From NCBI GenBank assembly GCA_028710605.1, contig JAQTTU010000001.1, positions 248,001-312,000 of the forward strand: DNA of 64,000 nucleotides, read 5' to 3'. The stretch's first letter is position 1. Each line of letters opens with the position of its first letter. The notes under the pieces were generated by a model. It had not been told where the DNA came from. It searched no databases and saw only the letters and a list, made by a program, of their open reading frames with translations. This document shows positions 7,825-50,539 of the stretch, piece by piece. This DNA comes from Sideroxydans sp. Lineage in GTDB: Bacteria; Pseudomonadota; Gammaproteobacteria; Burkholderiales; Gallionellaceae. Both the position numbers and the translations under genes were made by a program.

Positions 7825-8268
7825 ATGAAAACTTACACCGCCAAAGAAATGAAGAACCGCTTGGGTCAGGTTTTTGAATCTGCCGAAAGCGCGCCTGTCG
7901 AGATCACCATGAACGGCAAGGTGTTCGCGTACCTGCTTTCCGCCGAGGATTACTGGAAACTGAACGGCGGCAGTAAGCTGGGCGAGCAGGAAAAGCGCGA
8001 TGTGCTGATCGATTTGATGAATGGTGAAATCACCGCTGTCGCTGCCATGAAAGCGCTTTGCCTGACGCAGCGCAGTGAGCTGAAAAAAGTATCCGCTGAA
8101 TTGGGTGTCGGTGTTAAGGATAAGTTGTTAAGCGAGAAGAACGATAAGCGCAATGCTTTTTTCGCGGACATCGCCAGCGGCAAGGCGCGCGCTGCCGATG
8201 CGATGTTGTTCCGCGAGGTGGCAGTCAAGTGTCGAGGCCGCGCGAAGTTCAGAAGCGACGAGTATTGA
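7825..8268 (+). CDS. Phd/YefM-like antitoxin with C-terminal extension
   Basis: 147 residues. The first ~50 (MKTYTAKEMKNRLGQVFESA...FAYLLSAEDYWKL) match the Phd/YefM antitoxin fold: a short DNA-binding strand-helix unit with the typical NRLGQVFESA helix and the YLLSAEDYW strand. The remaining ~95 residues are helical and charged and may neutralise or bind the partner. The ancestral start codon of the next gene (GTG at 8269) follows its stop codon directly, so the two genes formed a tight pair. The role inferred is the antitoxin/autorepressor of a toxin-antitoxin-like module whose second gene is now broken. An imperfect inverted repeat just upstream (AAGTAGCTACTTTGCC, around 7793-7808) could be its operator. 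Confidence 0.8.
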   Translation: MKTYTAKEMKNRLGQVFESAESAPVEITMNGKVFAYLLSAEDYWKLNGGSKLGEQEKRDVLIDLMNGEITAVAAMKALCLTQRSELKKVSAELGVGVKDKLLSEKNDKRNAFFADIASGKARAADAMLFREVAVKCRGRAKFRSDEY

Positions 8269-9157
8269 GTGCGCAGCAAAACTGAAAGCCTCCTCTAAAA
8301 ATCCAAATTTCGTCGCAATACTGCGTTGCTCACAAAAAATTGCTCCTTACATATCCGACATATGCTGCGTCGCAATTTTTTGCTCGCGCCTTGTCTTGCT
8401 TAGAACTTTGAATTTTTAGAGGAGGCCTGAAATCGCGTTTTCTTCCACCAACCTTGATACGGTTCTGAAAAATCTGCCGCGCGATGCAATCCTTGTCGGT
8501 GGGCAGTCGCTCATTTTCTGGTTGTCGTATTACAAGCTCGACAGCTTGTTGCGGGGTACTCCGGCCATCAGCAAGGACACCGATATTCTGGGCGACCGAA
8601 GCCATGTCGCGCTGATCGCGAATGCCATCGGCGGCCTCGCCAAATACCCTCCCAAAAAATCCATCACCATTATTTCCGGGCAAGTGTTGCTGCCGGTGGG
8701 TGAGCATGAGTTTGTGAATATTGATGTGATTCATCATGTCGGCACGATGGACACCGACGGCGTAAAACGCCGCGCGGTGGAAATGGCGGCGGACGGGCAT
8801 CCGTTTCTGGTGATGCATCCGATTGATGTGCTGATCAGCCGCGCGGAGAATTTCCGCTGCGTTCAGGACAAGCAAAATGCTGCCGGATTAAGGCAGGTGA
8901 CGCTGGCTATCAAAGTGGCGGAGCTTTATATCGCCGAAACCATCAAGCGCGATGAAAAAGTCGCGCTTAACGCTATCGAGAAAATCGCCGAAACGGCTCG
9001 CAGCCCGGCAGGCATATTTGCCAGAAAACACGGGGCTGAAATCTACGAAGCAATCAATCCGGTCAAACTCGTCAAACTGGTTGAGAGCAAGCGTTTTATT
9101 GCCGACAGGTTGCCCAGACTGATTGCTGAAATGGAAGGCGCGAGGGCTTCCCGTTAA
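8269..9157 (+). pseudogene. nucleotidyltransferase-like partner of antitoxin, split by MITE
   Basis: The GTG at 8269 directly follows the antitoxin stop and reads V-R-S-K-T-E before running into the palindromic element at 8288 and stopping within it. Removing the element plus one CTGAAA copy restores a continuous frame (V-R-S-K-T-E-I-A-F-S-S-T-N-L) through to the stop at 9157, about 250 residues. The restored protein has a nucleotidyltransferase-like GGQSLIFW motif near residue 30 and a KDTDI acidic motif, resembling AbiEii-type NTases that act as toxins. The present downstream frame has no ATG/GTG before a TTG at 8522, which would drop the GGQS motif. It is therefore probably inactive. Family assignment is tentative; the interruption itself is seen in the sequence. 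Confidence 0.8.
8288..8426. mobile_element. 139-bp MITE with 6-bp target duplication
   Basis: Terminal inverted repeats of about 20 bp (GCCTCCTCTAAAAATCCAAA at the left, one mismatch to the complement of the right end) are flanked by the direct repeat CTGAAA at 8282-8287 and 8427-8432. The interior is itself palindromic (AAAAAATTGC pairs with GCAATTTTTT), centred on CATATCCGACATATG. It has no coding capacity, so movement would depend on a transposase supplied elsewhere. Confidence 0.88.
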
Positions 9158-9247
9158 TCTTCTCTGTTTTTCTCGTATTATCCGGCGCAGTCCATGAGCA
9201 CATGTTTTATCATGAAACTGTTTTCAAAATAACAAAGGCACTCATCT

Positions 9248-9640
9248 ATGGCATGGAGTTATGAAGAACTGGAACAACGGCTCGAAAAATATGAGGTTGC
9301 CGTATCTGTCCGGGGCAGCACATTCCTGAAGGTTTTCTTCGGCATTTTCGGGGCGGCTATCGCGGTTGTCGTGCTTTTTATGACGAATATCCTACCCACC
9401 CCGGTTGCTGAAACTTGTCTCGCCGCAGCGCTCATCGCGTTTTGTTTGCTGGCGGCCTACATCGCTTTCACCGCGAAAGCATTCCATGAAGCCAACGGCG
9501 TATTTTGCCCCCATTGCGACGCATCACTGGCGACGCTGGGCGATGCTCTGGAGGGGTTTGAGGAAGATGGCATTGAACGACCGGAAAGTATGGAGTGCCC
9601 TCAATGTCATCGCGTGGTGGTACAGAAGAAAGCGCAATAG
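9248..9640 (+). CDS. small membrane protein with C-terminal zinc ribbon
   Basis: 130 residues. A short N-terminal amphipathic helix (EELEQRLEKYE) is followed by two transmembrane segments near residues 27-47 and 55-77, then a soluble tail with two CPxC knuckles (CPHCDASL and CPQCHRVV) about 35 residues apart, forming a probable zinc ribbon. Function unknown; such ribbons usually mediate protein or nucleic acid contacts on the cytoplasmic face. It is monocistronic between the broken toxin gene and a REPIN. Confidence 0.75.
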   Translation: MAWSYEELEQRLEKYEVAVSVRGSTFLKVFFGIFGAAIAVVVLFMTNILPTPVAETCLAAALIAFCLLAAYIAFTAKAFHEANGVFCPHCDASLATLGDALEGFEEDGIERPESMECPQCHRVVVQKKAQ

Positions 9641-9741
9641 TCCGCATTTCCCGGTAAACGGCTGCATGCGTTGATTGCTTGAACCCAGAAACGGCAGTCG
9701 ATGGCTAATACACTGCCACTTCCCAGCGTTGCACTGTCTTG

Positions 9742-9799
9742 GTAGGTGCGAATTTATTCGCACGCCAAAAGAGTTATGTGCGAATAAATTCGCACCTAC
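9742..9799. repeat. GTAG-type REPIN (TGCGAAT hairpins)
   Basis: Two inverted REP units: GTAGGTGCGAATTTATTCGC at the left and its near-complement ending CGCACCTAC at the right, separated by about 14 bp. The 5' GTAG tetranucleotide before a hairpin is the hallmark of REP sequences mobilised by RAYT (TnpA-REP) transposases. Confidence 0.85.
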
Positions 9800-9849
9800 A
9801 AACACCTCAACTGCGGTTTTTTTTGATTGAATCGCCCGTTGCCGCGCGC

Positions 9850-11544
9850 TTATTTAGCCGTGCCGTCCGGCACAGTGCCGACGCGAAATGCCGGCGCTTG
9901 ATATGCGCTATCCGCCGCCACGCTGTTCACGGTCGAGGCATTGCCGTCGCGCAGGGCGTAGTAATGCGGCGACATGATCTCCACGCCGGCGGCATCGAAT
10001 TTGTCGAGAATGTTGCGGTGCATGTCCGAGTAGATGTTGGCCATAAATTGCGGCTCTTTGGTGTAGGCGTTGATTTCGTAGCTGACGTAGTAATCGTCCA
10101 GCGAGGTTTGCAGCACGAACGGCGCGGGCTGCGGCAGAATTTTTTCCGTGGCCAGCGCGGCTTCAATCAGCAGGTCGCGCACTTGTTTCCACGGCACGTC
10201 GTAGCCGATGGTGACCGTGGTATGCAGAATCACGCCGCCGCCATCCGCCGCCGAGGTACTGAAATTGATGATCTGCGCGCCCATCACCAGCGAATTGGGA
10301 ATGGTCACGATCACATGCTTGATGGTATTGATGCGCGTCACCAGCAGCGTTTTCTCGACCACATCGCCCTCTGTGTCGCCGACCTTGATGCGGTCGTTCA
10401 ATTTGAACGCGCGGGTATAGGTCAGAATGATTCCGGCCACGATATTCGAAATGGCCGACGAGGACGCGAACGAGATGATTGCCCCGAGCACCAGACTCAC
10501 GCCCTGAAAAGCCTGCGAGCTGGAACCGGGAATATACGGGTAGGCGCTGATGAGCGCGGTGACGATGACCAGGAAGCGCACGATCTGGTAAGTGGGACGC
10601 GCCCAGTCGGCGTAGAACCAGTCAAACTTCAATTCGCCGCGTTCGATGAGCCTGAAAATATAAGCAATCAGTTTCAGGATATAAAACGCGATGAAGCCGA
10701 TGACGAAAATGTAAAACAGATTCGGGATATAGCCGATGACGTTGTGAAAAATCGTGGCGAACGGTTTGAGCAAATATTCGAGTATCGTGGCGCGCAACTG
10801 GCGCGTTTCCGGGAAAAATCCGAGACTGAGCAACAGAAAAACATACAGGCACAGCAACACGATAAACGTGCGCAAGAGTTTCAGCGCGGCCAGCAACAAG
10901 CCCTCAAGCCGTCTGGAAGAAAACAGCTCAACCCCTTTGAAGTGAATTCCCTTCTTCCAGTATTGGTCGGAAGCGAGCACCTTGCCGGTCAACCAGACGA
11001 ACGCTTTATTGTTCCAATGCAAGGCCAGCCACAATCCGATGAGGGCGAGAAAGAAGAAAGCGCTGGCGAAGCCGTAGATATGCCACGAGCGTTGGGTGCG
11101 GTAGTCGGTTACCGCCGCCCGTATCCGCCCGAGAATCTCCCCGGCCAGCGCCTCCGCAGATTTACCCCGGATTTCCGCATCGCGCGCCGTCACGATCATC
11201 AGCATCGCGCCGTCGCCGCCTATGCCCTGCCCTTCCGCCAGCGCGCTCACTTTGAGCGTGGCGACATCGGCATTGCCGTCGGCAAAATTCTGGATGTTTT
11301 TCAGAATGAGTTGGGCGCGGCTTTCCGGGCTCAGCGAAGCGATCGGACTGCCGGTGATTTCGATAATTTGCACCCCGGCAAATTGCACCGGGAAACCGGC
11401 GGGAGACGATGCGGCCTGCGGCGCGGAAGCCGCGAGCGGAGCACTGGCCAACTTGCCGGAGGGCGCGCCTTGCTTGGCATGCGCGGGCAGCGCGCCTAGC
11501 GCGCACGCGACAAAACACAGTACAGAAAAGATTCGCATCGCCAT
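9850..11544 (-). CDS. MscS-family mechanosensitive ion channel
   Basis: 564 residues from the ATG at 11544, which has GGAG upstream and begins a signal peptide (MRIFSVLCFVACALG, cleaved after PAHA). The longer frame to 11682 adds 46 residues lacking signal features and is rejected. A periplasmic domain of ~150 residues precedes several transmembrane segments between about residues 170 and 370. The MscS core follows, with the pore-lining helix region VLGAIISFASSSAISNIVAG and the beta domain motif GDTEGDVVEKTLL. It should act in the inner membrane as an osmotic safety valve. A diheme cytochrome gene lies divergently upstream; the start regions are about 250 bp apart. Confidence 0.92.
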   Translation of the reverse strand: MAMRIFSVLCFVACALGALPAHAKQGAPSGKLASAPLAASAPQAASSPAGFPVQFAGVQIIEITGSPIASLSPESRAQLILKNIQNFADGNADVATLKVSALAEGQGIGGDGAMLMIVTARDAEIRGKSAEALAGEILGRIRAAVTDYRTQRSWHIYGFASAFFFLALIGLWLALHWNNKAFVWLTGKVLASDQYWKKGIHFKGVELFSSRRLEGLLLAALKLLRTFIVLLCLYVFLLLSLGFFPETRQLRATILEYLLKPFATIFHNVIGYIPNLFYIFVIGFIAFYILKLIAYIFRLIERGELKFDWFYADWARPTYQIVRFLVIVTALISAYPYIPGSSSQAFQGVSLVLGAIISFASSSAISNIVAGIILTYTRAFKLNDRIKVGDTEGDVVEKTLLVTRINTIKHVIVTIPNSLVMGAQIINFSTSAADGGGVILHTTVTIGYDVPWKQVRDLLIEAALATEKILPQPAPFVLQTSLDDYYVSYEINAYTKEPQFMANIYSDMHRNILDKFDAAGVEIMSPHYYALRDGNASTVNSVAADSAYQAPAFRVGTVPDGTAK

Positions 11545-37793: not shown

Positions 37794-39965
37794 TTAGAAA
37801 TCCCAGCGCAACCCGGACGAGAAAAAGAAACGTGAACTTTTGGTGGATGATTGCGAGCCCTCGAATGTCCCGCTGTCAACACCGATATCCCCTTCAAACG
37901 TCAGTTGATCCCTGATGCGATAAGTCCCGCGCAGCGTCGGCGAGATGCGCGAGGTCACGCCCCCCGTCTGATCTGTCTGGCGATAAAACGACAGCATAGT
38001 GTCCGTCGCCCAGCCGTTATTGAACGGGAAGTGATTGGATAGAGACAACGATTGCCCGTTCACTTCGCTGCTGGTAGTGATCGAGGTATTTATCGACCAG
38101 ATGTCGCCTTCCTTGTAGATACCGCTGCCGACAAGCTGCGCCGATGCCCCCTTTTCTACGCCGCGACTTGGAGAGGCAGCAAGAATGCCCGTATTCGTAT
38201 TCGTCCCGCTGGCGGGCAACCCGGTGGTATTTGACACGCGCACATCGCCGCCCACCTGCCATTTATCATGAAACGGCCAGGTCGCACCGAGTTGCGCCAT
38301 ATTCGAAGTGGCGGTGCGAGCCAACGCCAGATCGCGCAGTTGGCTGACGGACATGGATTGCATAAGCGTGCTGATAGACGAGGTGCTCGCGCCATTCAAT
38401 GCATTGCGCACACTCAGGAACGGGGCTTTGCGGTGGTCGAGCATGAAGTTCACGTTAACGCCGGATACTCCTGTCGTCCCCATCAACTGCGCTGCATTCA
38501 ACGCCCTGAAATAGGTATCGTAATCCACGCTGGCAAACAGCGTTTTCTTGTCCTCAAAATAGCGCCACTCCGCGCCCAAAGCACGGCGATCCAGCGTGCC
38601 ATCCACGCTTTGGTTAATGCCGTAGAACGTGTATGAACCCATGTCGTAACTGACACCGAAGAAGGTCGGCCTGCTTCCCGACGAGTTGTCCCACAATTTG
38701 CCGACAACGCCGTTCACACGCGAATCCGGCGTGTCCGCCATAGAACCATAGATTCCGTCAAAGCGTCCCATCACCCCGCCGCCCGACGAAGATTGCCGCC
38801 CCACGCGCAACAGATAATCCAGTTTGCGATTCTTGATTTCGCCGTAGGCAGCGGTCAAACGGTTGGCGCTGGACTGACCTGAAACAAAGTTGGCGGTATT
38901 GGCATCGCGGAACACGATGCGTCCGTCATACTCATCGCTCACATAGCGTTCGGACGCGTCCACGTTGGTGATGAGCATGGAAGTGTCTGTCATCGAAGTT
39001 GATACGGTCGAAGCCACATTGTTATAAATTTGCGTCGAATCGGAATTGCTCTTGCCGTAGTAGTAATGCGAAGAAATACTCCCGAAGCGCATCCAGCGCC
39101 CGTCTTTTTTCTTTTCTTCGGTTGTAGCGGCCACCTGAGCGCCGCCCTTGCCGGAGAGTGCGACCAGACGCTGCATGACTCGCGCCACGCCTTCCCCTTC
39201 CGTGTAAAGACGCAGGTAAAGATCGTATTCCGTCTTGGCTTTGTCAAACTGACCGGCGCGTTCCCGCGCTACGCCCACCCACTCCTGTCCATCCTGCGTG
39301 TAATCATTGGGCGGCAACAGCAGCAACTTGTTCAGGGCATCAATGGCGGCTTCGTTCTTCTCGGCGGCGAGCGCTTCGCGCCCCTGCACCATCAGCGCAC
39401 GCGCCTGCTTGTTGTTCTCAACAAGGTTCGCTTCGTCCGCCGTCAATGTTGCCGCAGGTGCGACTTCAGGTTTGATGGTGGGCAAAAAAGGCAGCGCAAC
39501 CTTGCTCGCCGATATATTTCTGTCCGGCTTGATCGTGATGCGCAAACTGCGACTGTCTTTGCCCGGCGCGACAGTAAACTCGGCTTCGCGCGAAAACTCG
39601 ACCACCAGTTTCGGCGCGGAATTCATGTCGCGCGTAGTCACCGTAAAGCTCGGGATAAGACCGGAAGGCGGAGAGTTGCGCGTCTCGTTATCCAGCCACA
39701 CTTCGTTGCTCGTTTCCTTGTCAGCCTGCGGCCTCACGTCCTGCGCGCGATCAATAAATATCTCCAGCGTCTTGCCGTTTTTCGCGGGGAAATGCCGCAA
39801 GTATTGCACGGGTGCCGTCGTGTGAATCGTGGCGACGATGCCGTCGCTCTGGTATTCCAGACTGACATCATCCAGCGGCTGCGCAACAGCGTTGCCGGCT
39901 ATTGCCGAAAATAAAAACATACCGCAAGAATGTCGATACCTTTTAAAGAAAGACCTGATTTTCAT
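37794..39965 (-). CDS. predicted outer-membrane beta-barrel with N-terminal periplasmic domain
   Basis: 723 residues with GGAG upstream of the ATG and a signal peptide ending near GNAVAQ. Residues 30-150 form a beta-rich domain (YLRHFPAKNGKTLEIFIDRAQ) of AMIN-like character. Residues 180-270 look like TPR helices (ARALMVQGREALAAEKNEAAI). From about residue 285 to the end it is a series of amphipathic strands with Gly/Asn/Ser turns (WMRFGSISSHYYYGKS, YLLRVGRQSSSGGGVMGRFD) ending SSGLRWDF with a terminal Phe, the signal for outer-membrane assembly. This size allows a barrel of 20 or more strands. It lies 83 bp beyond the multiheme cytochrome gene at 40049 on the same strand, so it is a candidate porin for a cytochrome conduit. 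The family was not recognised; the barrel is inferred from the residue pattern. Confidence 0.78.
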   Translation of the reverse strand: MKIRSFFKRYRHSCGMFLFSAIAGNAVAQPLDDVSLEYQSDGIVATIHTTAPVQYLRHFPAKNGKTLEIFIDRAQDVRPQADKETSNEVWLDNETRNSPPSGLIPSFTVTTRDMNSAPKLVVEFSREAEFTVAPGKDSRSLRITIKPDRNISASKVALPFLPTIKPEVAPAATLTADEANLVENNKQARALMVQGREALAAEKNEAAIDALNKLLLLPPNDYTQDGQEWVGVARERAGQFDKAKTEYDLYLRLYTEGEGVARVMQRLVALSGKGGAQVAATTEEKKKDGRWMRFGSISSHYYYGKSNSDSTQIYNNVASTVSTSMTDTSMLITNVDASERYVSDEYDGRIVFRDANTANFVSGQSSANRLTAAYGEIKNRKLDYLLRVGRQSSSGGGVMGRFDGIYGSMADTPDSRVNGVVGKLWDNSSGSRPTFFGVSYDMGSYTFYGINQSVDGTLDRRALGAEWRYFEDKKTLFASVDYDTYFRALNAAQLMGTTGVSGVNVNFMLDHRKAPFLSVRNALNGASTSSISTLMQSMSVSQLRDLALARTATSNMAQLGATWPFHDKWQVGGDVRVSNTTGLPASGTNTNTGILAASPSRGVEKGASAQLVGSGIYKEGDIWSINTSITTSSEVNGQSLSLSNHFPFNNGWATDTMLSFYRQTDQTGGVTSRISPTLRGTYRIRDQLTFEGDIGVDSGTFEGSQSSTKSSRFFFSSGLRWDF

Positions 39966-40048
39966 CTCTACTCCTAATCCAACTATCCTTAAAATCCTGT
40001 AATCACCTGTCGTGGCCGCACGTCAACACATGCAGCCGAAACGACAGC

Positions 40049-41197
40049 TCATGGCTCGTTCCAGTAGTCGTATCTATTCTGGTGACAAGAGATGCAGTCC
40101 TGCCCGACAGAAAAGTGTTTATGCCCGTAACTTTTTTGCTTCATTCCCGCAAAGTTGCTTGTTCCGCTCAAATGGCAGGCGATGCATTGCGTACCGGCTT
40201 TCATCTGACTGTGATTCATGCCGGCCCAAGTGGAAGCGGTGGAATGACACCAATTGCACTGGGCGGGTGTATTCAACAGATTGGCAAGCGCATAGGCATG
40301 GTTTGCGGGAATACCCGTTATTCCAGCATGAGTCCCGTTGTGACAGGCCACGCAATCGCCCGCACCGAATGCCGCATCGTTGTGCCGATAGCGCGCACCG
40401 GCAAAGCTGGCGTAGCTCCGCACATGGCAGGACTCGCAATTGGTGATACCAACCGCCGTCGCACTGCCATGGATCGCGTTGACGGCCTGCGTCACGCCGC
40501 CTGCCGTCGTGTAAGACGGATTGGCGTGGCACTCGCCGCATGAAGTAAATGGTTTGTCGTGCTTGAAATAATGGCTATAGAAGCTGTAGTAGTTGCTATG
40601 GCAAGACGCGCAGTTGCTGATTGCCAAATTTACAATAAAAGTAGCGTGTTTGGCGGTTGTCGTGTAATTGCGCCCCGGCCCTCCGGCCTTATGGCAGAAC
40701 GAGCAATCCTGCGTCGCGCCGGTATGGTTCCAGCTCGCCGGAGTCCACGCGCTGCTGCGGTGACATTGGTCGCAGGAATAGGTAGTCGCAATATGTGTGC
40801 GATGCTTGCCCGTTGAGATGCGCCCATTGTGGCAAGTGGCGCATTGTCCCGGCGCGACCGTGCCGTGATTGAAGCGCGCGCCCAGCCAAGTGGCGGTATT
40901 GAAGTGGCAGCTTTCGCACGGCGCGTCGGTGATGATGTGGCTGTTCGATTTGGGGGTCGCCACGATGCGTTTACCGACCGCATGGCAGCCATCGCAGGTG
41001 CGCGGTATCCCTTTAAACACGCCGCCCGCATGACAGGTTTCGCACGCTGCCGAGGCATGCCCGCCGGAAAGCGGAAAACCGGTGGTCATGTGATTGAAGT
41101 CGCGTCCGCCCATTTGCGTTTCGGCCAGCGCCTGCAACGGCACCATAGACAGCGCTACCACAAACAAACTGCACAACATTTTTCTCATTCGTTTCAT
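40049..41197 (-). CDS. 13-heme c-type cytochrome
   Basis: 382 residues with signal peptide (MLCSLFVVALSMVPLQALAE). Thirteen CxxCH heme sites are present: CETCH, CDGCH, CESCH, CATCH, CDQCH, CSFCH, CASCH, CGECH, CESCH, CVACH, CNWCH, CIACH and CISCH, plus many extra His for bis-His ligation. The first ~150 residues, from GGRDFNHMTTGFPLSGGHA to the SAW-PASWNHTG segment, are almost identical to the 18-heme protein at 41270, so they are duplicates. No lipobox. It could be periplasmic or held within or outside an outer-membrane barrel; the barrel gene follows directly. Confidence 0.93.
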   Translation of the reverse strand: MKRMRKMLCSLFVVALSMVPLQALAETQMGGRDFNHMTTGFPLSGGHASAACETCHAGGVFKGIPRTCDGCHAVGKRIVATPKSNSHIITDAPCESCHFNTATWLGARFNHGTVAPGQCATCHNGRISTGKHRTHIATTYSCDQCHRSSAWTPASWNHTGATQDCSFCHKAGGPGRNYTTTAKHATFIVNLAISNCASCHSNYYSFYSHYFKHDKPFTSCGECHANPSYTTAGGVTQAVNAIHGSATAVGITNCESCHVRSYASFAGARYRHNDAAFGAGDCVACHNGTHAGITGIPANHAYALANLLNTPAQCNWCHSTASTWAGMNHSQMKAGTQCIACHLSGTSNFAGMKQKSYGHKHFSVGQDCISCHQNRYDYWNEP

Positions 41198-41225
41198 AAC
41201 TTACCCGCACATTCAAATTCCGCAT

Positions 41226-41256
41226 AAAAAGGCCGCGCAGAAACCCCTGCGCGGCC
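41226..41256 (-). terminator. terminator after the 18-heme cytochrome gene
   Basis: On the minus strand, GGCCGCGCAGG with loop GGTTT and CTGCGCGGCC is followed by TTTTTATG. It sits between the 18-heme and 13-heme genes, so expression of the downstream genes (13-heme, barrel) may be reduced or driven separately. Confidence 0.8.
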
Positions 41257-41269
41257 GGCAATACGTCAA

Positions 41270-42832
41270 TTATTCAGACCAATCCTGATATGAGCCGGAT
41301 CTCTTATGGCAACTCGTGCAGTTGTTAGCGGCACTGCCTTTATGCGACTTCTTGGTTTGCTGATTATTCCCCTGATAAGCATTGGGGCTGATGTGGCATG
41401 TAGCGCAAGTATTGCTGCCAATACTGTAGGTATGCAAAGTATTGATGTTCACTTTTGCCGTTCCGATGTGGCAACTACTGCAACTCACTCCGGCATTGAA
41501 CGGAATGTGGTTGCTCGGCATGGCACCGAGCGCCCCTTGCCAAGTAGTTTTGGAAGTGTGGCAATCGCTGCACGCGGCTGTAGTCGCAATATGGCCAGAC
41601 GGTTTGCCCAGTATCTTGCCGCCGGTTGTATAAGCTCCGCTGTGGCAAGTCGCACAGGCACTCGCAGTGTTGTGGTCAAAGACAGCGCCCGCAAAACTGG
41701 AGGTGCTCTTGTGGCAAGACTGGCACGAAGTCAGCCCCATTGCCGTGGTGACATTGTGGATGGCATTGGTCGCATGCACCACTCCCGCATACACCGGGCT
41801 AATGCCGTGGCAAGTTCCGCAGTTGGTCGATGCGCCCGCCCCCGAATGGTCGAACGTTGCGCCAACAAAACTGGAATAACTCTTGTGGCAAGCCTGGCAA
41901 GAGGTCAAGCCCATTGCCGTCAAACCGGTATGAATGCTACTGGTTGTGTGTGCCACGCCCGCATACACCGGAGTATCGTGGCAAGTACCGCACGAGCTTG
42001 ACGCACCCGCCCCAGAATGATCGAACGTCGCACCGGCAGTAAAGCTGGTGAAGTTCTTGTGGCAAGCCTGACAAGTGTTCAGCCCCATTGCGGTTGCGCT
42101 GATGTGAATGGAGGAAGAAGGTTTCTGCTTCACTCCCACATACGCCGGCTTATTCTCGTGACATGTTGCGCACGAAGTCGATGCACCGGCATGATCGTAA
42201 TAGGCGCTGTTGAAGCTATAGTAATTCTTGTGGCAAACGCCGCAAGTGCTGATCCCCATCGCCGACATCGTCGCCGCGCTCATGTGCGTGGATGCAGAAT
42301 AGTTACGCCCCGGACCAGCCGCGTTGTGACATGTCACACAGTCAGCAGTTACGCCGGTATGGTTCCAGCTAGCCGGAATCCAGGCGCTACTGCGGTGGCA
42401 TTTGTCGCATGAATAAGTGGTAGCAATGTGAGCACTGTTTTTCCCAGTTGAGATGCGTCCGTTATGACAACTGGCGCATTGCCCCGGCGCTACCGTACCG
42501 TGATTGAAGCGCGCCCCCAGCCAGGTGGCGGTATTGAAGTGGCAGCTTTCGCACGGTGCATCGGTAATGATGTGACTGTTCGATTTGGGAGTGGCCACGA
42601 TGCGTCTGCCGACCGCATGGCAAGCATCGCAAGTTCTCGGTGTGCCTTTGAACACGCCGCCCATGTGGCAGGTTTCGCACGCCGCAGCGGCGTGACCGCC
42701 GGAAAGCGGAAAGCCAGTGGTCATGTGGTTGAAGTCGCGCCCGCCCGGCTGCGTTGCCGCAACGGCCTGCAATGACGCAAAAATTAGCGCTACGGCGAAC
42801 AAACCCCCGATTACTCGTCCTAGTCGTTTCAT
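41270..42832 (-). CDS. 18-heme c-type cytochrome with internal repeats
   Basis: 520 residues from the ATG at 42832; nine extra residues in the longer frame precede the signal peptide. Eighteen CxxCH sites were counted. After a ~145-residue N-terminal part shared with the 13-heme protein, the middle consists of repeating two-heme units of about 45 residues (TAMGLTSCQACHKSYSSF, then GATFDHSGAGAS..CGTCH), at least four times, with a C-terminal part of different sequence. The modular gain of units explains the higher heme count. Secreted through Sec; periplasmic or surface location unknown. Confidence 0.93.
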   Translation of the reverse strand: MKRLGRVIGGLFAVALIFASLQAVAATQPGGRDFNHMTTGFPLSGGHAAAACETCHMGGVFKGTPRTCDACHAVGRRIVATPKSNSHIITDAPCESCHFNTATWLGARFNHGTVAPGQCASCHNGRISTGKNSAHIATTYSCDKCHRSSAWIPASWNHTGVTADCVTCHNAAGPGRNYSASTHMSAATMSAMGISTCGVCHKNYYSFNSAYYDHAGASTSCATCHENKPAYVGVKQKPSSSIHISATAMGLNTCQACHKNFTSFTAGATFDHSGAGASSSCGTCHDTPVYAGVAHTTSSIHTGLTAMGLTSCQACHKSYSSFVGATFDHSGAGASTNCGTCHGISPVYAGVVHATNAIHNVTTAMGLTSCQSCHKSTSSFAGAVFDHNTASACATCHSGAYTTGGKILGKPSGHIATTAACSDCHTSKTTWQGALGAMPSNHIPFNAGVSCSSCHIGTAKVNINTLHTYSIGSNTCATCHISPNAYQGNNQQTKKSHKGSAANNCTSCHKRSGSYQDWSE

Positions 42833-43039
42833 GAGATACCCCCAAATTATTATTTTCACTACTTAAGTATTTGGCTTGCCCAAGGCCTACCCTGTTTGAA
42901 ACAAGGCCGTTCGCAATTTCAAAGCGAACACCGAGCACACTACATCAAGACTATTTGCAATCTTATTATCCCCGACGCGGGCGGCACCCGAAACACCGCG
43001 CATCGGTTTGCACTTTAAGACGAACGGCAGATACGGTTG
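42833..43039. other. gap between 24-heme and 18-heme cytochrome genes
   Basis: 207 bp with no gene. A small hairpin (CGTTCGC...GCGAACA, about 42909-42931) and two direct copies of CAAGGCC lie here. It may hold a promoter for the 18-heme gene. Confidence 0.4.
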
Positions 43040-44803
43040 CTAACGTGTCGCCGCCCCCATCTTTACGGTTTTCCAGTCATTTCCCTCGTGGCAACGGTCG
43101 CAACGGTCGCCGAAGTTGCCGTTGTGCACATCATCCCTGTCATGGCAGCTACCGCACGCCGAGGACAGCAACACCTTCTGCCCCGACATCGGTTTCTTGT
43201 GGCAGGAGTAGCACTTGTCGGCGGTTTTCTTGTGCGCGCCATCCAGCTTGAACTTAGTCTTATTGTGGTCAAAATCCCATGACTGCCACGAGCGCGTAGA
43301 GTGGCAAGTCTGGCATTCGGTTCCAAACTTGCGTTTGTGCGTATCGTCTTTTTCGTGGCAACCGAAGCATTCCTTGCTCGCATCCTTGAAGGTCGGCGCG
43401 GCATGACACTTCTTGCACGACACGAGTGAGTGCTTGCCCAACAGCGGGAATACCGACATGCGCTGGTGGTTGAAACTGGTCTTGTTCCACGATTCTTCCA
43501 CGTGGCAGGACTCGCATTTCTTGCCTTCCTGGCCTTTGTGCTTGTCGTCCTTTTCGTGGCAGGAGAAGCAGTCGGTTTTCAGCTTGTCCTTGTAAAGATC
43601 GCCTTTGTGGCACGACACGCACTTGACCGGCGCGTGCTTGCCCAGCAGCGGATATTTGGTCTGTTTGCCGTGATCGAATTTGATTTCTTTCCAGTCTTTT
43701 TCGACGTGGCAATCCTCGCACTTGGTGCCGAAGTTGCCCTTGTGCTTGTCGTCTTTCTGGTGACAGGCATTGCACAGCGTCTGCAACTTGTCCTTGTACA
43801 AATCCCCCTTGTGGCACGACACGCACTTGGCCTGCACGTGCTTGCCCAGCAGCGGATACTTGGTCTTGCTGTGGTCGAACAGAATTTCTTTCCAGCCTTT
43901 TTCGACGTGGCAGTCCGCGCATTTCTGCCCGAAACTGCCTTTGTGCTTATCGTCCTTCTGGTGACAGGAAATACAAGTCGTCTTCAGCTTTTCCTTGTAC
44001 GGGTTGCCTTTATGGCAGCTCTCGCACTTGGCGGGAGCATGCTTGCCCAGCAGCGGGTACTTGGTCTTCTTGTCGTGGTCGAAGGTGATTTCCTTCCAGC
44101 TCTTCTCGATATGGCAGGTCTCGCACTTCGGCCCGAAATTGCCTTTGTGCTTGTCGTCCTTCTTGTGGCACGAGAGGCACTGCATGGACGTGTCTTTGTA
44201 TTTGCTGTTGATGTGACACTTGTCGCACTTCACTTCCTCGTGCTTGCCCAGCAGTTTGAACTTGGTCTTGGAGTGATCGAAATTGGTGGTCTTCCAATCC
44301 TTGTCCGAGTGGCACTTGGCGCAATCCGTTCCCAGACCGCCTTTGTGTTTGTCGTCTTTTTTGTGGCAGCTATAACAAACGCTGGGCGCGTCGCGGAATT
44401 TCACTCCCGCCTTGTGGCAACTGGTGCATTTTGCTTTTTCGCCGAGGTGGCCGCCCTTCAACACAAAATCGGTCAGCTTGTGATCGAATTTATCGTGATC
44501 GAACGCGGCCACTTTGGCCTCGCGTCCTTTGTGTTCGGTGTGGCATTCCTTGCACTCTTTGCCCTGCTCCATGCGCCCGTGGTAGCCGGTCTTGTCGGCA
44601 ATATCCTTGCCGACTTCCTTGTGGCAATCCGCGCACATGGTTGACTGCGCGCCCTTGTCGAATTTCTTGTGGCACTTCTCGCACTCCTCTTCCACCTTGG
44701 CGTGGCCTTTGATGACCTCGCCCGGCATCAGCAATTTATTGGCGTGCGCCTGCGCGGACATCAGCAGCCCGGCCAGCATGAGAATTCGCAAGAAAGTTTT
44801 CAT
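43040..44803 (-). CDS. 24-heme c-type cytochrome built from three-heme repeats
   Basis: 587 residues from the ATG at 44803 (a TTG two codons upstream is less likely). The signal peptide MKTFLRILMLAGLLMSAQAHA is followed by 24 CxxCH sites. From residue ~100 the chain is a tandem array of units of about 60 residues, each with three hemes and the recurring parts KDDKHKGNFG.KCE.CH, VEK.WKEI.FDH..TKYPLLGKHA and CHKGDLYKDKL.T.C..CH. The Lys-rich composition gives a high positive charge. Long, evenly spaced heme chains like this suit electron transfer across the periplasm. It lies 21 bp after the gene for the cytochrome-b-like membrane protein, so they are co-transcribed. Porin-cytochrome complexes of PCC3 type in iron oxidisers are recalled to have MHCs of this size. 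Confidence 0.95.
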   Translation of the reverse strand: MKTFLRILMLAGLLMSAQAHANKLLMPGEVIKGHAKVEEECEKCHKKFDKGAQSTMCADCHKEVGKDIADKTGYHGRMEQGKECKECHTEHKGREAKVAAFDHDKFDHKLTDFVLKGGHLGEKAKCTSCHKAGVKFRDAPSVCYSCHKKDDKHKGGLGTDCAKCHSDKDWKTTNFDHSKTKFKLLGKHEEVKCDKCHINSKYKDTSMQCLSCHKKDDKHKGNFGPKCETCHIEKSWKEITFDHDKKTKYPLLGKHAPAKCESCHKGNPYKEKLKTTCISCHQKDDKHKGSFGQKCADCHVEKGWKEILFDHSKTKYPLLGKHVQAKCVSCHKGDLYKDKLQTLCNACHQKDDKHKGNFGTKCEDCHVEKDWKEIKFDHGKQTKYPLLGKHAPVKCVSCHKGDLYKDKLKTDCFSCHEKDDKHKGQEGKKCESCHVEESWNKTSFNHQRMSVFPLLGKHSLVSCKKCHAAPTFKDASKECFGCHEKDDTHKRKFGTECQTCHSTRSWQSWDFDHNKTKFKLDGAHKKTADKCYSCHKKPMSGQKVLLSSACGSCHDRDDVHNGNFGDRCDRCHEGNDWKTVKMGAATR

Positions 44804-44824
44804 ATTCAAATCGGGATTGGTAAC

Positions 44825-45721
44825 TTAATAAGCATGCACCGCATACACGTGGTAGAACGCGCTGAACACCATCATATAAACCAGCGGAATATGGAAAATG
44901 TGCCACCACGAAAACAGCCGCTCGTAGGTGCGGAACTGCGCGGCATCGCGCACTGCGCGCAGGTAGGACGAAATTTTATCGCGGTACTCCTGCAACATAT
45001 TTTCCATACCGGCCATTTGCTGTGCGGTGAAATTTTTCTCGCCTGCCTGCGCCAGCATGATCTGGCGAATTTCTTTGGACAACGCACGCGACAGCGCCGA
45101 AGCCTGATAACCCACCCTGACAAAGTTGGCGAAACCGTAGCCGGTATCTTTGCTGTAACTCTCGGCACGCGCGCGGAACTCATCCAGGGCTTTTTCCACA
45201 CTGGGCGCGAAGCTGAACATGGATTTGACATCGCCGCTCTGCTCCATTTCAGCGCGCAATTCGTTCACCGTGGTTTGTCGGCCATAAAGCCCGTGGTGAA
45301 TTTTGGTATAAAAGAAACGCCCGAAAGTGCCGCTGCCCGACACCAGCAGCATGCACAACATCGCCACCGCCGCGTTGGGCGAACCGATGGGATGGATGAA
45401 CGGGATATACACGTGATAAGTGGAATGGAAAATGATGGTCATCGGTCCCAGAATGCCCAGCACCATGTGCCACTTGAACCATGAGGGCAAAATACCGAAA
45501 TTCTCGAAGAACTTGACGCGCTTGCGCAACGGGTAGAGCAGCAGCACCAGCATCATCAGGCCGCCCGCCAAACCGAGGTTATAGCCGAAATCAAAAAGCT
45601 CCTCGCCCGGCTTGTACAACGTTTGCGGATACAGCACAAAATAGCCGCCGAACGTAATGATGCCCACGATGCCGATGAATATCAGCCAGTGCAGATGTTC
45701 AGATTGATTTTTTGCTCTCAT
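44825..45721 (-). CDS. cytochrome-b-like inner-membrane protein, His-rich helices
   Basis: 298 residues, with GGAAGG before the start (ATG at 45721; a GTG at 45724 is possible). Five hydrophobic helices: HWLIFIGIVGIITFGGYFV, a second at 48-66, WHMVLGILGPMTIIFHSTYH, AAVAMLCMLLVSGSGTFGRF, and a C-terminal FSWWHIFHIPLVYMMVFSAFYHVYAVHAY. Paired His in helix three (WHMVL...FHSTYH) and the last helix (WHIFHIP...FYHVY..H) are spaced for heme ligation, as in b561/ferric-reductase-like proteins. A cytoplasmic or periplasmic helical domain of about 120 residues lies between helices four and five. It probably exchanges electrons between quinol or the partner oxidoreductase and the 24-heme cytochrome encoded next (inference). 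Confidence 0.85.
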   Translation of the reverse strand: MRAKNQSEHLHWLIFIGIVGIITFGGYFVLYPQTLYKPGEELFDFGYNLGLAGGLMMLVLLLYPLRKRVKFFENFGILPSWFKWHMVLGILGPMTIIFHSTYHVYIPFIHPIGSPNAAVAMLCMLLVSGSGTFGRFFYTKIHHGLYGRQTTVNELRAEMEQSGDVKSMFSFAPSVEKALDEFRARAESYSKDTGYGFANFVRVGYQASALSRALSKEIRQIMLAQAGEKNFTAQQMAGMENMLQEYRDKISSYLRAVRDAAQFRTYERLFSWWHIFHIPLVYMMVFSAFYHVYAVHAY

Positions 45722-45965
45722 CACTATTACCTTCCCATTATTTTTATAAACATCCAGTCATTCCGGCACAGGCCGTAATGCTGCAATTCTATTGGACTTT
45801 CCCCCGTCCGTATTTTTTCGGGCTGCGGATTGTAGAGGGGAAGCCCAGCCCCGGCAATTCGGAAATTTTACGTTTGGACGTTTGTCTTCCGTGGCCTCGC
45901 AACATAGAATGCCGCCGACCGCACACCTCACCGTTTCTTAATCCAAACTTCACGGGCGACACATC
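45722..45965. promoter_or_regulatory. divergent promoter region of the cytochrome locus
   Basis: 244 bp between the leftward cytochrome-b-like gene and the rightward Fe-S/FAD gene; both promoters must lie here. It includes a degenerate CGTCATTCC-type repeat unit (CAGTCATTCCGGCACAGGCCG, around 45755-45777 in part). No clear -35/-10 pair was assigned. Confidence 0.45.
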
Positions 45966-47261
45966 ATGGATATTTTCGACTATTCGATTTACCTCATCCC
46001 TTTGTTCATCATCGTTTATTTCTACCTGAGCGGCAGAAAGAAAAAAGAGAACGCCTCGGTCGAAATCATGAACGAGGCCATCGAAGCCGGACTGACCGAG
46101 CCTCCGTCTTTGCACCCCGAAATCGACCCCAAAATGTGTTTGGGTTCCGGCAGTTGCATCCCGGCCTGCCCCGAAGGCGCGATCGGCATGATTAAAGGCA
46201 AGGCGGTACTGATTAACCCTACCCACTGCATCGGCCACGGCGCGTGTGCGGCGGCCTGTCCGCACAATGCGATCACGCTGGTGTTCGGCACGTCCAAGCG
46301 CGGCATGGACATCCCGCAAGTCAGCCCCAGCTTCGAGACCAACGTCCCCGGCATTTTCATCGCGGGCGAACTGGGCGGCATGGGATTGATCCGCAAAGCG
46401 GCCACGCAAGGCACGCAAGCCATCGAACATATCGCCAAGCTCAAGGGCGGCAGCAATCCTTACGACGTGGTCATTATCGGCGCGGGTCCGGCCGGACTGG
46501 CGGCAACGCTGGGCGCGATGGAACACAAATTGAAACATGTCACCATCGAGCAGGACACTTCGCTGGGCGGCTGCATCTTCCAATATCCGCGCAACAAAGT
46601 GGTGATGACCGCGCCGGTGAAATTGCCCGTCGTCGGCGAGATGCGCTTCAAGGAAGTCAGCAAGGAAAAACTGCTGGAATTTTGGCAAGGCATCATCGAC
46701 AAAACCGGCATGAAGCTCAACTTCAACGAGCGCATGGAAGCCATCACCAAGACCGACAGCGGCTTCGTGGTCAAGACCAGCAAAGGCGAATATGCGACGC
46801 GCGCCGTGTTGCTGGCTATCGGACGGCGCGGCACGCCGCGCAAACTGGGCGTTCCCGGCGAAGACCAAGCCAAGGTCGTGTACCGCATGATTGACCCGGA
46901 GCAGTATAAAAACATGCACGTGCTGGTGGTGGGCGGCGGCGACAGCGCGCTGGAGGCGGCGATTGCGATTGCCGAACAACCGGGCACCACGGTGACCCTG
47001 TCTTATCGCAGCGATGCGTTCGGGCGCGGCAAACCGAAAAACCGCGACAACCTGAAAGCGATGACCGACAAGGGCAGAATCGACGTGCGCCTGAAGTCGA
47101 ACGTCAAGCTGATTGAAAAAGACAAGCTCGTGCTGGAACAGGATGGCAATAAATTCGAAATCCCCAACGATGCCGTCATCGTCTGCGCGGGCGGCATTCT
47201 GCCCTCGCCGTTCCTCAAGGAAATCGGCGTGCTGGTGGAAACCAAATTCGGCACAGCCTGA
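45966..47261 (+). CDS. membrane-anchored ferredoxin-FAD pyridine nucleotide oxidoreductase
   Basis: 431 residues. One N-terminal transmembrane helix (YSIYLIPLFIIVYFYLSG), a two-cluster ferredoxin-like domain (residues 50-110; CLGSGSCIPACPEGAI and CIGHGACAAACPHNAI) and a thioredoxin-reductase-like flavoprotein domain with FAD motif VVIIGAGPAGLAATLGA and NAD(P)H motif VLVVGGGDSALEAA. The redox CxxC of thioredoxin reductase is absent, as in YpdA-type enzymes. Each ferredoxin motif has Ser or His at the second Cys position, so the clusters may be 3Fe-4S or have another ligand. It is transcribed divergently from the cytochrome operon and could link NAD(P)H to the membrane cytochrome. Confidence 0.9.
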   Translation: MDIFDYSIYLIPLFIIVYFYLSGRKKKENASVEIMNEAIEAGLTEPPSLHPEIDPKMCLGSGSCIPACPEGAIGMIKGKAVLINPTHCIGHGACAAACPHNAITLVFGTSKRGMDIPQVSPSFETNVPGIFIAGELGGMGLIRKAATQGTQAIEHIAKLKGGSNPYDVVIIGAGPAGLAATLGAMEHKLKHVTIEQDTSLGGCIFQYPRNKVVMTAPVKLPVVGEMRFKEVSKEKLLEFWQGIIDKTGMKLNFNERMEAITKTDSGFVVKTSKGEYATRAVLLAIGRRGTPRKLGVPGEDQAKVVYRMIDPEQYKNMHVLVVGGGDSALEAAIAIAEQPGTTVTLSYRSDAFGRGKPKNRDNLKAMTDKGRIDVRLKSNVKLIEKDKLVLEQDGNKFEIPNDAVIVCAGGILPSPFLKEIGVLVETKFGTA

Positions 47262-47331
47262 TGCCGCGCCCGCATTGGCGCGGCATTGAGTCTGGCTTGC
47301 CGTTTCTAAAATCATTATCTCTGTCTCTCGA

Positions 47332-50388: not shown

Positions 50389-50539
50389 GATTTGCTCCCA
50401 AGAGTTGCTTTTCGATGCGTGCACAATAATGAGGCCGACTTAAGGAATTCTTAAATGCGGAACAATTTCTTTTCCCATGCAGGAAAGAAGGAATTCCCGG
50501 ATTCACACCACCACACATGATCGCAAGCCAGACAACACG

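Follow-up and report, generated by a model that had tools for sequence, protein, structure and literature searches.

A membrane-anchored Fe-S/FAD oxidoreductase as a proposed fifth component of the PCC3 porin-cytochrome conduit in Sideroxydans sp.

The PCC3 porin-cytochrome conduit has been described as a set comprising a barrel, an extracellular multiheme cytochrome (MHC), a periplasmic MHC, and an inner-membrane protein (IMP) (PMC5566968). According to that source, the IMP is a conserved protein of about 300 residues with five helices, two WX3HX13H motifs, and an SGXXG motif, its paired histidines have been likened to the arrangement in ferric reductase and NADPH oxidase, the periplasmic MHC has a residue/heme ratio of 22-39, and Sideroxydans lithotrophicus ES-1 carries PCC3 as Slit_0867-0870 and Slit_1446-1449. 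The literature since 2017 lists PCC3 as a possible iron oxidase; no function has been demonstrated for it, and no cytoplasmic partner was known. This study analyzed a 64,000-nucleotide stretch of a Sideroxydans sp. genome (GCA_028710605.1, contig JAQTTU010000001.1, positions 248,001 to 312,000; hereafter the window), in which five minus-strand genes and one divergent plus-strand gene span 37794..47261. The PCC3 set is already known; what is new is its partner, the protein of the divergent Fe-S/FAD gene, for which we coined the name FSF. An FSF that tracks the PCC3 IMP would supply the cytoplasmic end of the pathway and would predict its electron donor and direction.

PCC3 character of the minus-strand genes

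The host genome is near-complete (3.36 Mb, 99.71% completeness), and its nearest named relatives by protein comparison are Sideroxydans and other metagenome-assembled Gallionellaceae genomes. From upstream to downstream, the minus strand encodes the IMP, the 24-, 18-, and 13-heme cytochromes, and a 723-residue probable barrel. The features of the locus are as follows.

37794..39965, minus strand: PCC3 porin candidate, 723 residues; signal peptide, weak TPR match, C-terminal probable beta-barrel, same place in PCC3 loci
40049..41197, minus strand: 13-heme c-type cytochrome, extracellular-type PCC3 MHC by CxxCH count and homology
41270..42859, minus strand: 18-heme c-type cytochrome, extracellular-type PCC3 MHC; probable start codon ATG at 42832
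43040..44809, minus strand: 24-heme periplasmic-type PCC3 MHC with a three-heme spacing repeat; likely ATG start at 44803
44825..45724, minus strand: PCC3 IMP with two WX3HX13H motifs and SGXXG; probable start codon ATG at 45721
45725..45965, no strand: divergent intergenic region between IMP and FSF, with a degenerate CTTAAG-N5-CTTAAG-like site at 45937-45953
45966..47261, plus strand: FSF, predicted membrane-anchored Fe-S/FAD/NAD(P)H oxidoreductase of 431 residues; proposed fifth PCC3 component
46119..46286, plus strand: FSF ferredoxin-like domain, residues 52-107; C58-x2-S61-x2-C64-x3-C68-P and C88-x2-H91-x2-C94-x3-C98-P
46299..46448, plus strand: FSF segment SEG, residues 112-161; FAD-binding segment placed before the GxGxxG core
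46455..47258, plus strand: FSF FAD/NAD(P)H part CORE, residues 164-431; GAGPAG at 172 and GGGDSA at 323

The gene coordinates in a preliminary description of this DNA, made from the letters alone, were correct; three of its open reading frames (ORFs), those of the 18-heme cytochrome, the 24-heme cytochrome, and the IMP, probably start a few codons further in. An antisense ORF opposite FSF (45789-47315) had no family match and was treated as a shadow ORF. The same description read the region as an extracellular-electron-transfer locus, which our results support, but held the cytochromes, barrel, and IMP to differ from PCC3. Their composition (a probable barrel, extracellular-type MHCs, a large periplasmic-type MHC, and an IMP of about 300 residues) and the IMP motifs match PCC3, and the contrast therefore fails; by these sequence features, the five minus-strand genes are assigned to a PCC3 conduit. 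The locus differs from the published PCC3 descriptions, as far as these are available to us, in having FSF, and it also differs in having two tandem extracellular-type MHCs, an arrangement shared with three other loci (L056, L071, and L084).

The three consecutive cytochrome genes contain 13, 18, and 24 CxxCH sites, the 55 in total that the preliminary description had counted, and these numbers lie far above those of shuffled proteins (500 shuffles each; means of 0.16, 0.20, and 0.33, maximum of 3). The 24-heme protein combines very many hemes with a low residue/heme ratio (24.5 residues per heme), as PCC3 periplasmic MHCs do, and its heme count is one of the three values (21, 24, and 27) published for Gallionellaceae periplasmic PCC3 MHCs (PMC10734462). 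Over most of its length, a three-heme unit repeats every 66-71 residues (about 67). The 13- and 18-heme proteins form a tandem pair with 56% identity over 374 residues, and their homologues occupy the place expected of the extracellular MHC in PCC3 loci. The 24-heme protein is putatively periplasmic and the other two putatively extracellular. Against TIGR03508, the DmsE/MtrA decaheme profile (cut-off 192.2), the 13- and 18-heme proteins scored 39.7 and 65.6 bits, and the 24-heme protein was not among the listed matches.

Among the fetched loci, in which a few genomes occur twice, 61 ORFs for the first MHC after the IMP are complete, and 58 of them had a heme count of 21 (11 ORFs), 24 (38), or 27 (9); the remaining three had 9, 10 (L098, a split gene), and 23 (Emticicia) hemes. 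The steps of three hemes look as if the length of the IMP-adjacent MHC were set in modules. In three loci of other genera (L156, L159, and L160), the extracellular-type PCC3 cytochrome adjoining the FSF-IMP pair has 62 CxxCH sites in a single ORF of about 1,690 residues.

The 723-residue protein is probably an outer-membrane beta-barrel. It has a signal peptide and, in its N-terminal part, a weak TPR match at residues 198-267. The two-residue hydrophobic periodicity of the C-terminal part is modest (z = 2.4 versus shuffles; 0.9 for the N-terminal part), with 11 segments above threshold in the periodicity scan. The protein ends in RWDF, all 35 listed homologues end in F or Y, and the homologues hold the same position in PCC3 loci. 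No usable solved relative was found in the PDB.

The gene that the preliminary description had called a His-rich inner-membrane protein carries the PCC3 IMP motifs, WX3HX13H at 82 and 274 and SGXXG at 131 (0-based starts), and all three motifs were also present in the 21 other IMP sequences checked. No Pfam or NCBIfam family matched the window IMP above its cut-off. A hydropathy scan of 19 IMP rows resolved five helices in ten rows, six in two, and four in seven, the window IMP being one of the seven. Where five helices were resolved, the helix 2-3 loop contains 4-7 K/R, the 119-147-residue loop between helices 4 and 5 is K/R-rich, and the C-tail lacks K/R. Because both loops are K/R-rich, we place them in the cytoplasm; on this charge pattern, the long loop before the last helix and the FSF domains would face the same side. 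The IMP is predicted to bind two b hemes, one on the cytoplasmic side (H86/H278) and one on the periplasmic side (H100/H292). The two HX13H pairs on helices 3 and 5, the two predicted b hemes, and a presumed cytoplasmic NAD(P)H/FAD donor recall NADPH oxidase and ferric reductase (PF01794); the difference is that no sequence match exists and that the putative donor in the window is a separate Fe-S polypeptide.

Two other described systems are related. In subgroup II of PCC4, an Fe-S gene lies beside the IMP (He et al. 2017, PMC5566968), as FSF does beside the window IMP. MtrCAB, MtoAB, and PioAB likewise join a porin to a multiheme conduit across the outer membrane, but the window barrel did not match MtrB_PioB (PF11854), and the locus has neither the MtrB/PioB porin nor the DmsE/MtrA decaheme cytochrome of those systems. 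An MtoAB-like pair of the same genome lies on another contig (C22).

Co-occurrence of FSF with the PCC3 inner-membrane protein

We searched wider genome samples for the IMP and for full-length FSF. In a sample of 399 genomes of the order (IMP, E <= 1e-15; full-length FSF, E <= 1e-170), the IMP was found in 21 genomes from 13 of 158 genera, and full-length FSF was confined to the identical 21, with no case among the remaining 378. The next-best matches to the FSF profile were partial and belonged to other flavoproteins (5.6e-49 and weaker). In a phylum sample of 398 genomes, four of whose positives also belong to the order sample, the full-length IMP (>= 288 bits) and full-length FSF (>= 597 bits) occurred in the same six genomes; 15 further genomes had IMP-like matches of 44-74 bits, which were not counted as PCC3. 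A family in another class of the phylum, possibly Alphaproteobacteria, yielded the IMP in 5 of 94 genomes and FSF in the identical five, and a four-genome family of that class yielded one genome with both, already within the phylum sample. Full-length FSF without a full PCC3 IMP was thus found in 0 of 378, 0 of 392, and 0 of 89 genomes of the order, the phylum, and the other-class family, respectively. The cut-offs for full-length FSF were set after the gap in scores had been seen, a gap that separates at least 557 bits from at most 236 bits (other flavoproteins). Among 41 close relatives, 19 had both genes, 18 had neither, and one (G025) had a weak IMP match only.

The preliminary description had staked its proposal on the joint conservation of the cytochromes and the Fe-S/FAD gene. 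This analysis did not refute the proposal, and the joint conservation of FSF with the IMP supports the assignment of the gene to the electron-transfer locus. The wider samples carry the weight of this argument because the neighborhood is inherited as a block within Gallionellaceae.

The arrangement of the two genes varies while the pairing persists. FSF stands head to head with the IMP in 19 of the 21 positive genomes of the order sample; in G286, it lies downstream of the barrel on the same strand, and so it does in G461, where it directly follows the barrel on a contig that starts inside the cluster. The FSF-IMP distance is about 4 kb in G563, and the two genes are on separate contigs in G345; in the other-class family, FSF is about 4 kb from the IMP in two of five genomes and on a separate contig in three. 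Three gene orders keep the pairing, namely divergent (most loci), downstream of the barrel (L210 and L211), and between the IMP and the MHCs (Emticicia). Of 52 named loci, nearly all from Gallionellaceae, 48 leave room for a neighbor; FSF is head to head with the IMP in 37 of the 48 and in one further locus with less room. FSF is present in the fetched stretches of 38 of 40 assemblies. Of the 11 Gallionellaceae IMP loci that have room but no FSF neighbor, two are lone IMPs without MHCs, and eight lie in assemblies with FSF elsewhere. In G004 and G022, FSF adjoins sucC with the PCC3 genes missing between them, and G004 has PCC3 at another locus.

The pairing also extends beyond the phylum. Emticicia oligotrophica (Bacteroidota) carries a PCC3-like set on plasmid pEMTOL02, where genes in the same orientation encode, in order, an IMP, FSF, two cytochromes with 23 and 40 hemes, and a 538-residue protein, a possible barrel that did not match the barrel profile. 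The IMP (281 residues) has both WX3HX13H motifs, and the FSF is 46% identical to that of the window. This was the only plasmid record at E <= 1e-30. The set adjoins the cytochrome c biogenesis gene ccsA on a plasmid typed as non-mobilizable, and its presence there beside ccsA suggests that the system may move as a package.

The FSF protein

FSF begins with a hydrophobic anchor, followed by a ferredoxin-like domain and then by the FAD/NAD(P)H domain; Pfam matched its ferredoxin domains and a Pyr_redox domain. The anchor was present in 16 of 17 aligned rows, with a net positive charge after it in 15 of the 16. The FAD domain has an unusual order. Residues 108-164 gave 18 PDB matches, of which 15 landed on the FAD segment found C-terminal to the NAD(P)H domain of reductases of the thioredoxin, glutathione, and lipoamide types and three landed elsewhere; the E-values were weak (best, 0.018). 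This segment (SEG) precedes the GxGxxG part (CORE) in FSF, whereas ordinary relatives have it after the NAD(P)H part. With CORE and SEG profiles built from the FSF alignment, the reverse order, CORE then SEG, was found in 22 large relatives (21 distinct, as L205 and L207 are the same), and nine additional FSF proteins, the Bacteroidota one and those of the other class among them, kept the order ferredoxin-SEG-CORE. By sequence, the FAD domain of FSF is a natural circular permutation, which sets the Fe-S domain beside the FAD segment.

The Fe-S motifs of FSF keep the canonical spacing, with the second Cys replaced. Among 93 distinct FSF C-terminal sequences from all fetched loci, many of them from one family, the second-Cys position of motif 1 was Ser in 64, Ala in 23, and Cys in 6, and that of motif 2 was His in all 93. 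The corresponding position was Cys in 22 of 24 large-relative entries, with one motif each; the other two entries had no motif match. FSF therefore lacks the eight Cys in two CxxCxxCxxxCP motifs of a 2[4Fe-4S] ferredoxin, and its Fe-S domain is not an ordinary one because both motifs of the window protein are without the second Cys. These replacements lead us to predict one Cys3His [4Fe-4S] cluster, with an invariant His as ligand, and one [3Fe-4S] or open-site cluster. The earlier label of a ferredoxin/FAD gene thus holds for the anchor and the two domains, but not in the sense of an ordinary ferredoxin.

The earlier comparison with YpdA holds for the fold only. The best PDB match of FSF is YpdA 7a7b (E = 7.7e-27), whereas the NCBIfam YpdA score (TIGR04018) is 163.8 bits against a cut-off of 339.9. 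The catalytic residue of YpdA is reported to be Cys14 (PMC6591457), and FSF has Ala at this place in its GAGPAG motif. With the score, the missing Cys, and the permuted domain taken together, identification of FSF as YpdA was rejected. A thioredoxin reductase was rejected as well, given the permuted domain and the absence of CxxC after residue 160 in all 17 aligned rows. FSF shares the thioredoxin reductase-fold FAD and NAD(P)H domains with these proteins and with ferredoxin-NADP reductases of the same type, and differs from them in its permutation, in these missing residues, and in its added anchor and Fe-S domain. HdrA profiles scored far below their cut-offs and matched only around the Fe-S part. 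We noticed no permuted Fe-S flavoprotein of this fold and no link between FSF and PCC3 in the literature searched; supplementary gene maps outside that search could show the neighbor.

The distant cNMP-FAD-ferredoxin proteins share CORE and SEG with FSF, but have CORE first and a C-terminal ferredoxin; the cNMP domains were seen in the single protein scanned with Pfam. These proteins also adjoin IMP-like proteins and MHCs (L207, L221, L222, and L230). One such module belongs to the genome of the window (contig C22; L230, 376500-396400): an FAD-ferredoxin relative of 799 residues is accompanied there by an IMP-like protein (39.6 bits) and a cytochrome with nine CxxCH sites, and the genes for the mtoAB-like porin and decaheme cytochrome are some 7 kb away. 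The SEG/CORE order of FSF was also seen in L198, in a protein fused to a presumed NapH-like membrane ferredoxin, and in L231 (G427, 7911-10250), in a 780-residue protein that has SEG before CORE and an apparent fusion of the same kind; the fetched stretch of L231 had no ORF with two or more CxxCH sites.

Direction of electron flow and the divergent region

The sequence itself shows which genes are present, how many hemes they encode, the motifs of the IMP, the topology from charge, the order of domains, the altered cluster ligands, and the co-occurrence; we infer the redox partners, the bound cofactors, NAD(P)H as the donor, the location of the MHCs, and the direction of flow. In the proposed path, the N-terminal anchor would hold FSF in the inner membrane, its redox domains would face the cytoplasm, and two electrons from NAD(P)H would be taken up there on the permuted FAD domain. 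The FAD would then pass single electrons to the two unusual Fe-S clusters, and these would reduce the cytoplasmic-side b heme of the IMP. The two stacked b hemes would carry the electrons across the membrane to the 24-heme wire, which would deliver them to the outer membrane, and the barrel would pass them on to the 13- and 18-heme extracellular cytochromes. An NAD(P)H flavoprotein in the cytoplasm beside a di-heme IMP suggests this sequence. We lean somewhat towards the view that PCC3 has in FSF an unrecognized fifth component, and that the two form an NADPH-oxidase-like unit that works mainly outward, onto Fe(III), humics, or similar acceptors. The fuller proposal is more tentative: PCC3 may be an NAD(P)H-fed export line of at least two phyla, in which FSF and the di-heme IMP are a split transmembrane reductase, the wire is built of triheme units, no quinone step intervenes, and the function is extracellular reduction or redox balance.

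The preliminary description had suggested a path from the outside to NAD(P)H. The potential of circumneutral Fe(II) lies above that of NADP+/NADPH, and inward electron flow through stacked b hemes opposes the membrane potential. On these general bioenergetic grounds, the downhill direction would run from NAD(P)H to the outside, and the suggested direction was probably wrong. If the outward direction is true, counts of iron oxidation potential in which PCC3 serves as the marker would need revision. Published expression data are mixed. PCC3 genes were reported to be lower in Fe(II)-grown ES-1 (PMC8788666), the ES-1 proteome table gave no clearly readable PCC3 trend (PMC12016527), and one PCC3 IMP was up in iron-oxidizing CL21 cells (PMC12442390). 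Putative PCCs of methylotrophs have been suggested to serve the reduction of Fe(III) or humics, in a study whose list of putative novel PCC genes extends to Bacteroidetes (He et al. 2019, PMC6344600).

Several observations weigh against the proposal of an outward-working FSF-IMP unit, the CL21 result among them. Among the close relatives, G013 (92% complete) has two IMPs and no FSF, and FSF without an IMP was found in two incomplete genomes, G022 (69% complete) and G001 (82% complete, where a partial gene lies at the end of a contig); assembly PLYB has PCC3 without FSF within the fetched stretch. Over 26 loci, FSF distances correlated with those of sucC (r = 0.63) nearly as well as with those of the PCC3 parts (0.72-0.75). 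Co-inheritance within Gallionellaceae thus adds little, and we judged the correlation unconvincing as proof that FSF and PCC3 are inherited together. The window IMP did not match PF01794, a family also missing from the nine that were listed for 19 homologues, and the PDB gave no usable match to the IMP. FNR-type sites (up to two mismatches) occurred in 2 of 29 intergenic regions, window included, versus 4.0 expected in shuffles; the whole window had 36 versus a shuffle mean of 30.35, near chance. FNR-type regulation of the divergent promoter was rejected for this lack of excess.

The opposite direction is unlikely in our estimation. In that case, PCC3 would draw electrons from Fe(II), from minerals, or from other cells; FSF would pass them to NAD(P)+, or the IMP would deliver them to quinone with FSF as a side branch. 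The up-regulated IMP of CL21 fits such uptake. PCC3 is frequent in iron-oxidizing Gallionellaceae and has been discussed as a putative iron oxidase (PMC10734462, PMC12442390), a quinone-active IMP was proposed by He et al. 2017 (PMC5566968), and the window's own genome also carries the MtoAB-like genes. The potentials given above and the down-regulation of PCC3 with Fe(II) in ES-1 argue against it, as does the FSF-IMP pair of Emticicia. Emticicia is not known for iron oxidation.

It is very improbable that FSF is a housekeeping reductase (for thiols, quinones, or cytochrome maturation) that merely adjoins PCC3. Much of the Gallionellaceae neighborhood, sucCD included, is inherited together, and the two incomplete relatives with FSF and no IMP would fit this explanation. 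Against it stand the complete absence of full-length FSF from the genomes without a full PCC3 IMP in all three samples and the persistence of the pairing where the flanking genes differ. In the window, sucC and sucD lie downstream of the minus-strand cluster, and on the far side of FSF come a QseBC/PmrAB-like two-component pair and the genes of two small c-type cytochromes. One locus of the same genus (L168) was the only one to share these flanking genes; sucC, sucD, terC, the histidine kinase, the response regulator, and the small cytochromes were absent from the fetched stretches of 23 loci of other genera, apart from a weak response-regulator match in L211.

In NfnL/HdrA-type enzymes, FAD and NAD(P)H domains are likewise combined with clusters and a non-Cys ligand position. 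Flavin-based bifurcation, in which FSF would split NADPH electrons between the high-potential PCC3 line outside and a low-potential ferredoxin for nitrogen or carbon fixation, is the least probable reading: FSF has such domains and two clusters, one with a non-Cys ligand position, and Rnf and ferredoxin genes have been discussed in iron-oxidizing Gallionellaceae (PMC10734462), but no second flavoprotein or ferredoxin partner was found among the cluster genes, to which the search was confined.

The divergent region between IMP and FSF contains, at 45937-45953, a site with three mismatches to CTTAAG-N5-CTTAAG, which we take to be a PmrA/QseB-like box. The exact box was found in five IMP-FSF intergenic regions (L053, L063, and L067-L069). 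It was present in 5 of 9 regions with a QseBC-like pair in the fetched locus and in 0 of 20 without, counts that include the nearly identical L068 and L069 and, within the 20, several regions that stop too soon for a pair to be seen; L084, which has no pair, carries the box with one mismatch. In the window, the same box with one mismatch also occurs at 50439-50455, just upstream of a small c-type cytochrome gene that starts at 50424 and lies beyond the two-component pair.

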